The translations under genes were made by a program, and so were the position numbers. A stretch of 64,000 nucleotides of DNA from Nodularia sp. LEGE 06071. Lineage in GTDB: Bacteria; Cyanobacteriota; Cyanobacteriia; Cyanobacteriales; Nostocaceae. The stretch spans positions 186,001-250,000 of the forward strand of contig NZ_JADEWH010000006.1 of NCBI RefSeq assembly GCF_015207755.1, read 5' to 3'. The first letter of the stretch is position 1. Each line of letters begins with the position of its first letter. A model generated the notes under the pieces. The model did no database searches, had not been told where the DNA came from, and saw only the letters and a list, made by a program, of their open reading frames with translations. This document shows, one piece after another, positions 2,133 through 5,765 of the stretch.

Positions 2133-2534
2133 AATTATTATCTCTTATTGTGACCTTTACTAACAGTTGGCAACCAGGTAGCTTTTACGCAGCTACATTT
2201 CTCGGAATTTGTTTGTACTATCCTTACATTAGCAAATTTAGCGGAAACAAAAAGAAGCCCCTAGTCTGAAAAGAAGTCCAGCGCGGGATGAATTTTTCGG
2301 CGATATGCCCACCCCACAAAATTTCTCAGATTGTATATGTGACATTTTTTGAGATTTTATGTTTAGCTAGGCTGGTTATGTATAATCGGAAACTGCTAAA
2401 CCGGGTTGTCTCTGATAAATAAACGAGATATGATGCCCCAATTGTCTACACGGTGAGCGCATTGTCAAGTCGATATAGTTTCAAATCGAGAAATTGCCAT
2501 TATTATTTATTATCAGAACTTGGTTTTTCAGCTT
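2133..2534. other. Intergenic, no gene seen
   Basis: This 400-bp spacer separates two divergent genes and holds no convincing ORF or RNA. It should contain both promoters, but I cannot assign -35/-10 boxes with confidence. Confidence 0.5.
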
Positions 2535-3893
2535 ATGCATATCTTATCAACCCAAAAACTCCGCTTTACATTAGGTTTTGCTACTTTATTGCTGGTGAGT
2601 GCAGCTAGTATTCGTTTATATCCGCAGTCAATAAATCAACAACAAATTCCCGAACATCAAGCTGAAAAGCCTTTATTAGTTACTCAGTCCCAAAATTATT
2701 TTTTAACTAAATCACAGATTTCACCTGCTGCAATTCAACCTATTCATAGACTAGGCACAATTGTTCAGAATCCTGTTATTCTTCCCCAGATATCTCCTCA
2801 AACTATCAGTCCAGAAAACACCTTTACATCTGAGCAAGATATAGCATCAATACCTGTAACTTATCCAGTCATCGATGAGTGGCAAAAATATAAATTTAGC
2901 ATTGAAGGTAGTCAGGTTTTAAGTCCGGGAAAACTACCAACGTCTAATATTAATTTTAATCAGAAAGATTTATTTAGCGTTCTTGTTAATACAAGAAAAT
3001 ATTTTCAAGACCACGCTTCCGAAGACCCAAACATTTTTCGTAAAGGGCTACTGGGTACACAAGGAGTAACTGTAGAAGATATTATCAAAACTTTAGATTT
3101 CATGATTACTGTATTAAGTGAGGATATTGCTAACAATCGCACCACCCGATTAGAAAATCCTGAATTTATTAACACCAATTTTCGAGTAATTAAATGGTCT
3201 GCCCATAATCCTCAGAACCAAAAGCAGAATCAAGTGCGAATTACAAAATATGCAGTATTTGAGCATACAGGTTCTCGCACCAAAACTTCTACTTACAATG
3301 TACCAATTTACAGTTTAAAAGAAGACAATATTACTGATAAATTTTACACGAGATATACCAAACAGGATGTTTTATCAGGTATTTATGAGCCTGGTGGTAA
3401 AGAACATGGTAGAGTCGAACCCCTGGCTTATTTAACCCGTGCTGGTTTAGAAGAAGCTTTAATGCAGGGAACAATCCTGATTAATTTTACCGATGGGACT
3501 CAAAGGTTTTTCAATGTGGATAGAAATAATGGTATTTCTTATGTGCAGGGATTAAAACCCACATCACAAAAGCGTTACTGGTACTTTAGACAAGTGGACG
3601 CTATCAAAGGCTATGGACATAATATCGATGCGAAAATTTCCATCAAGCCAGGAGTAACTTTTGCGGGAGATATCCTGAATATTGGATTAGGTAGAGTAGT
3701 CGTGATTGAACATACTAGAAATGGGCGGAAACAGTTGCAAATGGGAGTCATGGCGGATACAGGCGGAGCCTTTTTACCTAATCTGCATCAACTTGATTTC
3801 TTAGCAGGAACTTTTAAGAATCGACAAGAGTTTACGCAGCATATCCGCCAATTACCTGAGTATGCTACAGCTTATTTTCTCGTGAAAAAGTGA
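2535..3893 (+). CDS. Exported protein of unknown function
   Basis: This is 452 aa from the ATG at 2535; a TTG five codons upstream also keeps the frame open, but the ATG places the signal better. Residues 1-30 (MHILSTQKLRFTLGFATLLL...) form a signal peptide or anchor. A Gln/Pro/Ser-rich linker runs to about residue 110, followed by a folded region up to the end. Segments such as EPGGKEHGRVEPLAYLTRAG and VVVIEHTRNGRKQLQMGVMA look like a conserved globular domain, and the sequence near MADTGGAFLPNLHQLDFLAG resembles 3D/MltA-like murein-hydrolase folds with a conserved Asp. That likeness is weak. I do not recognise the family, and the envelope location is the only firm statement. Confidence 0.6.
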   Translation: MHILSTQKLRFTLGFATLLLVSAASIRLYPQSINQQQIPEHQAEKPLLVTQSQNYFLTKSQISPAAIQPIHRLGTIVQNPVILPQISPQTISPENTFTSEQDIASIPVTYPVIDEWQKYKFSIEGSQVLSPGKLPTSNINFNQKDLFSVLVNTRKYFQDHASEDPNIFRKGLLGTQGVTVEDIIKTLDFMITVLSEDIANNRTTRLENPEFINTNFRVIKWSAHNPQNQKQNQVRITKYAVFEHTGSRTKTSTYNVPIYSLKEDNITDKFYTRYTKQDVLSGIYEPGGKEHGRVEPLAYLTRAGLEEALMQGTILINFTDGTQRFFNVDRNNGISYVQGLKPTSQKRYWYFRQVDAIKGYGHNIDAKISIKPGVTFAGDILNIGLGRVVVIEHTRNGRKQLQMGVMADTGGAFLPNLHQLDFLAGTFKNRQEFTQHIRQLPEYATAYFLVKK

Positions 3894-3905
3894 TAACGAA
3901 CCCAA

Positions 3906-3938
3906 AGATCCCCAACTTCTTGAAGAAATCGGGGATCT
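3906..3938. repeat. 33-nt palindromic repeat unit
   Basis: AGATCCCC (3906-3913) and GGGGATCT (3931-3938) flank a core built around TTCTTGAAGAA, giving a near-perfect 33-nt palindrome with two mismatches. It lies just after a stop codon and could act as a terminator. The form is typical of palindromic units dispersed in cyanobacterial genomes. Confidence 0.65.
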
Positions 3939-3991
3939 GAACCTCTCGAATGTACGAAATTATCTGAAGTACAACTCAGGCGATGAATGAT

Positions 3992-4189
3992 TCAGAATGT
4001 ACCTCTAAATGCAGCATACGCCAGGGTAAAAATAATTGGGACTATGATCGGAATAATCACAATCAGTCCCGTTTTACCAAAGCGAATTTTTTGCCCATCT
4101 GCTTTTAAGAGACTAATTACAGATGCGGTAGCCATTGCAATCCAAATGCATCCAAAGATAATAAAAATTGTAAATGTTGAGTCATTCAT
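3992..4189 (-). CDS. Small two-helix membrane protein
   Basis: This is 65 aa from the ATG at 4189 (MNDSTFTIFIIFGCIWIAMA...). Two hydrophobic helices (about residues 6-25 and 41-60) flank a short polar loop (KADGQKIRFGKTG). The opposite strand is also open over the same stretch, but its product has no plausible membrane topology. The hydrophobic pattern supports this strand. The function is unknown. Confidence 0.5.
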   Translation of the reverse strand: MNDSTFTIFIIFGCIWIAMATASVISLLKADGQKIRFGKTGLIVIIPIIVPIIFTLAYAAFRGTF

Positions 4190-4389
4190 ATTCAAATAGT
4201 ACGTTTATACTGTACAATCATGGAGAGTAAGTTAATAACTTGTCAAGAATTGCATAAAAAAACTATGATTAAGCGATAGAAATCTATATAAACTCTGTCA
4301 AAACTTTTTAATAGCAATGATTCTAAATATTTTTATCAATTATATGTTAATTCACATAGACTATTGTATTACAAGCAGAGAGAAGAGGT

Positions 4390-4869
4390 ATGTTGAATAA
4401 ACTGATCAAATATTTTGTCTACGCAACAAAAGGGTATATTACAAAAACACAGCTAATTAAGTTTCTGTATTTAGCTGATCTTTACTCTGTTAAATGGACG
4501 GGAAACCAACTAACTGATCTAGATTGGTGTTATTATCAGTTTGGCCCTTGGAATGAGGGTATAGATGCGGCTTTAAATCAAATGAATGGGAAAGAGATTA
4601 TTCAAGAATCTCAGGAAAATGCAACATACATTAGGCCTGTGAATGAAGCCGCTCAGGTAGATGATTTGCAACTACCTATAAGTCTTAAGTTGGTGCTGGA
4701 TAATATTCGCAGAGAATGGGCTGGCGCAGATAAACTGAATCAGTTACTGGATTACGTGTATACAACTGCTCCCATGCTGGAAGTCAAAAATATGCATCAG
4801 CCAGGAGAAAAAGTTAAACTCAACTTACAGGCAGAAAGAGCAAAATTAGTCAGTGAATTAGGATTGTAA
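4390..4869 (+). CDS. Panacea-domain (PanA/DUF4065) antitoxin
   Basis: The 159-aa protein starts at an ATG with a purine-rich site (AGAGAAGAGG) 1 to 10 bases upstream. The first 75 residues carry the Panacea pattern: LIKYFVYATKGYITKTQLIKFLYLADLY, then YYQFGPWNEGIDAALNQM, where the conserved Y-x-F/Y-GPW turn is plain. Panacea domains act as promiscuous antitoxins in two-gene modules (PanAT), neutralising unrelated toxins. The next gene starts one base after the stop codon and looks like a PemK/MazF-type toxin, so the pair is most likely a toxin-antitoxin operon. The antitoxin comes first, as is usual for type II systems. Confidence 0.8.
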   Translation: MLNKLIKYFVYATKGYITKTQLIKFLYLADLYSVKWTGNQLTDLDWCYYQFGPWNEGIDAALNQMNGKEIIQESQENATYIRPVNEAAQVDDLQLPISLKLVLDNIRREWAGADKLNQLLDYVYTTAPMLEVKNMHQPGEKVKLNLQAERAKLVSELGL

Positions 4870-4870
4870 A

Positions 4871-5473
4871 GTGGCTGGACAAAGACCTCGACAAGGTTGG
4901 ATATATTTGATAAATCCCTATAGGGTGTCTCTTCGTTGCCAATTGGGTCATGTCCATATTTATAATTTAGATGAGCCAAGTGAAGTAGAATGTCAAACTT
5001 GCAGTGAGAATATTAATTCCAGCAGGGTTTTTAGAGGGAAACATCCTTATATCATCTGGACAAGTGATCAATTTCAAGATGAATCAGGATATATAGCAAC
5101 GTTTTCTGTTATTCCTCTGACTTCACAAGTAACATTTAACGGTTTACCAACCACATATCCAATTAACTCTACAAGTAGAAATAGTTTGGATAAAAAATCC
5201 TACGCTTTAGTTCATCAAATTTGTACTGTTGATGCTAATTGCTTTAAAGACACATCAGCCAATTGGTTAGACAGAATTGGACAATTGGATCAAGCTGATA
5301 AAAAAGCAGTAGAAGAACGATTAAAGTATTTTTTAAATATTCAAGACAATCCGAGTGAAGACTGGTTCGCGCAAAATGCATCTCCAGAACTTTTAAAAAA
5401 AGTCTTTGATTATTTACCTGAAGATACAAAAAATTTAGCAATAGAAGAATTAATCAACAATTTAGGCTCATAA
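4871..5473 (+). CDS. PemK/MazF-like toxin with an inserted Cys/His zinc-ribbon-like loop
   Basis: This is 200 aa from a GTG one base after the antitoxin stop. The opening QRPRQGWIYLINP matches the first strand of the MazF/PemK SH3-like barrel. HPYIIWTSDQFQD and FSVIPLTSQ correspond to the 'RPxLVISxD' and 'ViPiTS' strands, and SYALVHQICTVDANCF plus WLDRIGQLDQADKKAVEERL to the closing 'QirtvD...rl G.l' segment. Between strands one and two is an insertion of about 35 residues with Cys23, His27/His29, Cys41 and Cys44, a plausible metal site. The canonical RP pair reads HP. A further 40-residue acidic tail follows. The predicted activity is ribosome-independent mRNA cleavage; this is inference from the fold. 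Confidence 0.7.
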   Translation: MAGQRPRQGWIYLINPYRVSLRCQLGHVHIYNLDEPSEVECQTCSENINSSRVFRGKHPYIIWTSDQFQDESGYIATFSVIPLTSQVTFNGLPTTYPINSTSRNSLDKKSYALVHQICTVDANCFKDTSANWLDRIGQLDQADKKAVEERLKYFLNIQDNPSEDWFAQNASPELLKKVFDYLPEDTKNLAIEELINNLGS

Positions 5474-5666
5474 TACATAGCTATTTATCACTGATAAATT
5501 TATCGCACCACTTGTTTAATTACTCTATTCTTGTGGTGATTGAGCAGAGTTGAAGTGTTGCTTCCCTCTCAGGTCTAAATACACGCTAGTTTCCCGAATA
5601 CCGAAAATTTATATTTCGGACATGAATTTGTCAACAGTGATAAATAATCAGTTAATGTATAAAAAA

Positions 5667-5739
5667 CGAGCGCGGAGGGATTTGAACCCCCGACCCACAG
5701 AACCGGAATCTGTTGCTCTATCCACTGAGCTACGCGCCC
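5667..5739 (-). tRNA. tRNA-Arg (anticodon CCG)
   Basis: Read on the minus strand, a full cloverleaf folds. The acceptor stem GGGCGCG pairs with CGCGCTC (one G-U). The D-arm reads GCTCAGTGGATAGAGC. The anticodon stem ACAGA/TCTGT encloses the loop TTCCGGT, giving anticodon CCG (codon CGG, Arg). The T-arm is CGGGGGTTCAAATCCCTCCG-like with the TTCAAAT loop. CCA is not encoded. It sits downstream of the M23 gene on the same strand. Confidence 0.95.
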
Positions 5740-5765
5740 TAACATTACCCAATTATAGCACGACT

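Follow-up and report, generated by a model that had tools for sequence, protein, structure and literature searches.

A probable toxin-antitoxin module of Nodularia that joins a stand-alone Panacea protein to a MazF-fold toxin with a conserved Cys/His insert

A Panacea gene adjoins a gene for a PemK/MazF-fold protein

The window analysed here is a stretch of 64,000 nucleotides from Nodularia sp. LEGE 06071 (contig NZ_JADEWH010000006.1, positions 186,001 to 250,000), in which two adjacent genes at 4390..5473 probably form a mobile type II toxin-antitoxin (TA) module, with a MazF-fold RNase bearing a Zn finger held by a stand-alone Panacea protein. The gene pairing, the fold class, the conserved ligand set, the purifying selection, the one-sided decay and the mobility are the part of this reading that rests on the data presented below.

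4390..4869, + strand: Panacea (SocA-like) antitoxin gene, 159 amino acids, ATG start
4871..5473, + strand: PemK/MazF-fold toxin gene, 200 amino acids, GTG start
4860..4863, + strand: AGGA, a possible Shine-Dalgarno sequence for the toxin gene (by eye), 7 nucleotides before the GTG and inside the last antitoxin codons
5348..5470, + strand: C-terminal helical extension that follows the MazF domain of the toxin (about residues 160-200; model helices 164-169, 172-181 and 184-198)

An earlier note on this DNA had described two open reading frames (ORFs) 1 bp apart, a Panacea domain in the first product and a PemK/MazF character in the second, and all of this was borne out. The first protein matches Pfam SocA_Panacea (PF13274, E=1.2e-8), scoring 36.3 bits where the cut-off is 25.7, and the second matches PemK_toxin (PF02452) over residues 55-154 with 41.7 bits against a gathering cut-off of 23.1. 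The best PHROG match of the toxin is 'MazF-like growth inhibitor' (E=3.8e-8). The structure prediction and the profile comparison that the earlier note had proposed both point to the same fold, the predicted toxin structure containing the SH3-like MazF barrel and hhalign matching the toxin to 24 ordinary MazFs with a probability of 97.5; the alignments with MazF stop near residue 159. Homologues on four plasmids carry a PemK/MazF toxin annotation and, in both plasmids inspected, the preceding gene is an annotated SocA-domain antitoxin; the pair is thus already recognised by automatic annotation.

The AlphaFold model of the antitoxin (predicted local distance difference test, pLDDT, 93.2; alignment of 33 rows) is a single compact domain with no disordered arm. 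Panacea stands alone in this protein, in which no DNA-binding domain was recognised. The GPV signature named in PMC8832971 reads GPW here, with G in 39, P in 49 and W, in place of V, in 50 of 53 antitoxins. Its PADLOC matches are weak only (PDC-M19A, E=1.1e-4; DarG, E=0.0021), the NCBIfam scan gave nothing near the cut-offs, and the antitoxin profile, searched against PDB sequences, returned nothing up to an E-value of 1. No clear palindrome was seen by eye as a conserved upstream operator in an alignment of 16 loci, and the promoter and terminator scans did no better than shuffled sequence. A mis-called gene is ruled out by the near-full-length open frames in many genomes and by non-synonymous divergence (dN) lower than synonymous divergence (dS).

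The antitoxin is retained wherever the toxin is intact

The toxin profile matches 41 of the 340 genomes of the order and the antitoxin profile 40. One of the toxin-positive genomes (G510) holds an ordinary MazF and several others hold fragments only. When the tables were compared by hand, the antitoxin gene was found directly upstream of all 32 near-full-length toxin copies, which are spread over 31 genomes; two of the near-full-length toxin matches contain an internal stop. The genes are therefore, as expected of a type II TA pair, two short co-directional neighbours that always occur together, and the co-occurrence in other genomes on which the earlier note had made its case depend is found.

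Decay of the pair was followed in 74 distinct loci, exact or contained duplicates having been left out before counting, and a gene was called intact when at least 90 percent of its length lay in one frame, so that two proteins of 185 amino acids count as intact. Both genes are intact in 53 loci and both are broken in 4. A broken toxin accompanies an intact antitoxin in 7, an intact antitoxin stands without toxin in 1, and a broken toxin has no antitoxin in the locus DNA examined in 4, one of which (L149) shows a weak antitoxin piece (E 0.009) near the contig end. The remainder are toxin fragments at a contig edge without antitoxin (2), broken antitoxins without toxin (2) and an intact toxin with Ns in its antitoxin (1). 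Hence, the toxin is broken or missing beside 8 of the 61 intact antitoxins, while the antitoxin is intact beside 53 of the 54 intact toxins and holds Ns beside the other; none of the 74 loci combines an intact toxin with the demonstrable breakage or absence of its antitoxin. This asymmetry is the signature expected of a harmful product and its neutraliser.

One toxin-less Panacea relative (L145:2670-3155) has large type I restriction-modification-like ORFs on one side and a small PIN-domain-like TA pair on the other (named by eye), an arrangement that would fit the loss or replacement of its toxin.

The toxin carries a Cys/His insert with an invariant ligand set

Within the loop that joins the first two strands of MazF (the beta1-beta2 loop), the window toxin has an insert that is absent from the 24 ordinary MazFs compared. 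It adds some 30 residues relative to MazF, near the figure of about 35 in the earlier note, whose four potential ligands were confirmed in position.

4922..5023, + strand: insert in the beta1-beta2 loop at about residues 18-51 of the toxin, where the model predicts strands at 18-22 and 28-32
4937..4939, + strand: codon of Cys23, putative metal ligand
4949..4951, + strand: codon of His27, putative metal ligand
4991..4993, + strand: codon of Cys41, putative metal ligand
5000..5002, + strand: codon of Cys44, putative metal ligand

In a set of 54 distinct intact toxins that includes the window toxin, 53 have the same residue at each of the four positions, and the exception (L016) lacks the whole insert. 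A chance cluster of Cys and His is ruled out by this conservation. The motif reads C-x3-H-x13/14-C-x2/4-C, with 13 residues between His27 and Cys41 in 51 of the 53 toxins and 14 in 2, and with Cys41 and Cys44 spaced as C-x4-C in 41 and as C-x2-C in 12. Two Cys/His ligand pairs are thus kept together, as in a zinc ribbon or knuckle, and disappear as a set when the insert does; such shared conservation and loss is the pattern predicted for a metal site. Only these four residues and Y31 have zero entropy within residues 18-51 (53 sequences, L016 excluded), and several of their neighbours vary widely. When the window toxin was compared with 12 others, dN was lower than dS in the insert for 11 pairs, the twelfth being saturated; judged by these substitutions, the insert is under purifying selection. 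The relatives were collected by similarity to the window toxin, and more distant insert-less forms may be missed.

That the cluster would instead be a redox or metal-sensing switch, whose lid unfolds upon oxidation or metal loss and so frees or arms the toxin, is to our mind quite unlikely. Three Cys and a His sit in the very loop that gates MazF, the C-x2/x4-C spacing varies, and the hosts would be oxygen-evolving phototrophs, all of which suits a switch; but the joint invariance of the four ligands and Y31 is what a structural site predicts.

The insert-less toxin (L016:1381-1929, from a genome shared with L156) is 39 percent identical to the window toxin and has its own Panacea partner, which makes it a natural finger-minus control. 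Judged from its sequence, it keeps the C-terminal helical extension. In the antitoxin tree, from which L034 was excluded for its Ns, as it was from the antitoxin columns, the L016 partner sits on a very long branch near the arbitrary midpoint root, a placement that favours neither gain nor loss of the insert.

The active site departs from that of canonical MazF

For MazF, it has been proposed that Arg25 acts as general acid/base and Thr48 as charge stabiliser, and access for both RNA and antitoxin is presumed to be controlled by the beta1-beta2 loop, as described in PMC7354611 and PMC11394972. The corresponding positions of the window toxin, together with a further candidate, are the following.

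5042..5044, + strand: codon of His58, which occupies the position of the catalytic Arg in MazF (Arg25, B. subtilis MazF; hhalign register GKHP / KTRP); His in 49 of 54 toxins
5120..5122, + strand: codon of Thr84, aligned with the MazF catalytic Thr48 (hhalign register PLTSQ / AITSQ); Thr in 48 of 54
5213..5215, + strand: codon of His115, candidate acid/base residue, after the strand 110-113 and before a Gln common to MazFs; His in 52 of 54

The register of Thr84 on Thr48 is the same in the EndoA/MazF alignments, which by themselves do not reach significance (E-values of 0.34 and above). The earlier note had read HP in place of the usual RP at residues 58-59, and this is what the sequence holds, yet the motif is not invariant: residue 58 is Q, N, S or G in the toxins that lack His, and Pro59 is present in 45 of 54. 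His58 and His115 occur together in 47 of the 54 toxins and are both absent in none. The Thr of the canonical site is thus present in the window toxin; the Arg is not, and we therefore do not call it a canonical MazF.

Two Calothrix toxins (L044:5001-5612 and L045:5001-5612) keep the metal ligands and open frames, and combine Q58 with N84 or I84. To judge by these residues, they are possibly inactive or have a shifted active site.

Proposed mechanism and points that weigh against it

Once free, the toxin would most likely block translation by cleaving RNA with its PemK/MazF SH3-like barrel. The flexible beta1-beta2 gating loop gives way to a small putative Cys3His finger which, to judge by the conservation of the ligands and the predicted hairpin, most likely holds one structural Zn and makes a rigid lid over the groove. 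Since the canonical Arg is gone, catalysis or substrate choice probably differs from that of MazF, with His58 and His115 as candidate substitutes for the Arg and Thr84 kept in most toxins. The Panacea protein would most likely neutralise the toxin by binding it directly. The C-terminal helices may be its likeliest constant docking surface, because the insert-less L016 toxin keeps both the helices and a Panacea partner; as it retains barrel, helices and Panacea without the finger, the latter is unlikely to be what Panacea needs, and is more likely to serve RNA access, RNA choice or toxin stability.

Several observations weigh against a zinc-fingered RNase as set out here. None of the 54 toxin rows has the catalytic Arg of the RP motif, Thr84 is replaced by S, N or I in 6 of them, and both H58 and T84 are lost in the two Calothrix toxins, whose open frames fit poorly with a strict dependence on these residues. 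If the L016 toxin works, the module can do without the insert. Zinc knuckles more usually have C-x2-C than C-x4-C, the spacing of most of these toxins. The best toxin model reaches a moderate pLDDT of 78 and the other four range from 62 to 43; no solved MazF has a significant sequence match to the toxin (best E 0.58 with the single sequence, 0.34 as a profile), which has no PADLOC match either. Finally, the seven loci with a broken toxin beside an intact antitoxin are distinct sequences, not necessarily independent events.

An alternative that we regard as unlikely is a MazF fold without RNase activity that, much as the related CcdB fold binds gyrase, would stop growth by binding RNA or some other target rather than by cleavage. 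It would accommodate the replaced Arg, the variable Thr84 and the open frames with Q58 and N84 or I84, and the Gly/Glu motif of the beta1-beta2 loop, invariant in the 24 ordinary MazFs, falls outside the aligned part. Yet Thr84 and the H115-Q116-T119-D121 segment are conserved in most rows, and MazF4 has a Lys at the place of the Arg (PMC7354611). Besides, the MazF-like partners of Panacea are described in PMC8832971 as specific inhibitors of protein synthesis that nonetheless also depolarise the membrane weakly.

A bolder form of the RNase mechanism, which we hold to be decidedly improbable, would have the active site rebuilt, with H58 and H115 as an acid-base pair like that of RNase A. A lid held by metal would cover it, changing how RNA is recognised and serving as a trigger through Zn loss or Cys oxidation. 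If this were true, the sensor would lie in the toxin and not in a labile antitoxin.

MazF toxins are tools for cutting RNA and serve as models for the way toxins are activated. A family with a conserved metal-finger gate and without the canonical Arg would test how replaceable the MazF mechanism is, and whether a metal site can set RNA specificity or triggering, while the stand-alone Panacea and the insert-less L016 pair offer a clean comparison for how Panacea recognises many unrelated toxins.

Distribution, mobility and locus context

In a sample of the phylum, 15 of 386 genomes match, 14 of them belonging to the order of the window genome or to a narrower shared group, the 15th match being weak, and the toxin was found in none of four sister species of the window genome. 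Homologues are present in 4 of 72,556 plasmid records with 88.5-90 percent identity, and two of these plasmids are typed as conjugative. In the two plasmids inspected, ParA genes lie near the pair, accompanied in one by ParM and ParB. Several strains have intact chromosomal copies (for example CP019636, AP018290 and AP018227); the genome contig scan used a single protein query and reaches close relatives only. A phage origin was considered and set aside, as 50,697 phage records gave no match and none of 21 pattern matches in viral contigs was confirmed.

The intact chromosomal copies in several strains would also suit an ordinary two-gene regulatory or RNA-handling operon that is not a TA pair. 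This is scarcely credible given the strict pairing, the one-sided decay of the toxin, the patchy presence, the plasmid carriage near partition genes and the known TA domains in both proteins, which point instead to a mobile TA module.

In the window, the variable interval that holds the pair is bounded by a tRNA gene.

5667..5739, - strand: tRNA-Arg (CCG), 3' end facing the toxin gene

The conserved flank starts at 5650-5658 in four sister genomes, which have other genes between the counterpart of the gene at 2520-3893 and this tRNA. The interval at tRNA-Arg(CCG), 3950-5667 in the window and L093, L094, L095 and L096 in the sisters, has different genes in each of the five congeneric genomes and represents a small variable hotspot beside the 3' end of a tRNA gene. 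Its contents in the sisters, named by eye from translations, are a phytochrome-like kinase with response regulators, IS630-like pieces with a pentapeptide-repeat protein, a PAS kinase, and a DUF29-like ORF. No convincing attachment (att) repeat derived from the tRNA was found within 3880-5760, and no integrase was seen by eye in the interval. A survey of neighbours (56 of 84 listed ORFs, from 18 of 22 loci) returned many Pfam families and some defence-type PADLOC models among the matches listed; as it had no control set, we claim no enrichment of neighbour families.

Relation to known systems

The earlier note had called a MazF with an internal zinc-ribbon beside Panacea not a textbook combination and suggested that it may mark a new toxin subclass with altered RNA recognition, an interpretation that is partly supported. 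The pairing is not new, since Panacea was described in 2022 next to MazF-like PanT toxins, which inhibit protein synthesis (Kurata et al., PMC8832971); no MazF with such a finger was found in open-licence PMC papers, a scope outside which lies Dataset S1 of PMC8832971, possibly listing cyanobacterial PemK partners. The toxin variant thus appears undescribed in those papers, within two known kinds (MazF fold and PanAT).

The closest systems are the PanAT pairs of Pseudomonas moraviensis and Bifidobacterium ruminantium, in which Panacea likewise adjoins an EndoA/PemK/MazF-like toxin. According to PMC8832971, these PanT toxins inhibit protein synthesis, the complex formed by the P. moraviensis pair is stable, and PemK is also among the domain hits named. 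By description rather than by sequence, they differ in having no CDD hit and similarity by HHpred only, and the available text of PMC8832971 mentions no metal-finger insert for them, the word 'zinc' being absent from its main text. In comparison with the MazF/PemK/Kid mRNA interferases (B. subtilis EndoA/MazF 4MDX, M. tuberculosis MazF-mt1 and MazF-mt3, Kid 1M1F), the window toxin has the Arg replaced, a Cys3His finger and a 40-residue helical C-terminal extension, and its partner is a Panacea, not a MazE-like protein. The C-terminal domain of DarG from DarTG (7yk3 chain D) belongs to a protein that also reverses the DNA modification made by its toxin, as PMC8832971 describes, whereas here Panacea stands alone and the toxin has an unrelated fold. 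Finally, SocA of SocAB, a ClpXP adaptor, has the same Pfam antitoxin domain as the window antitoxin, but SocB is described in PMC8832971 as a replication toxin brought to ClpXP, in contrast to the MazF-fold toxin found here.
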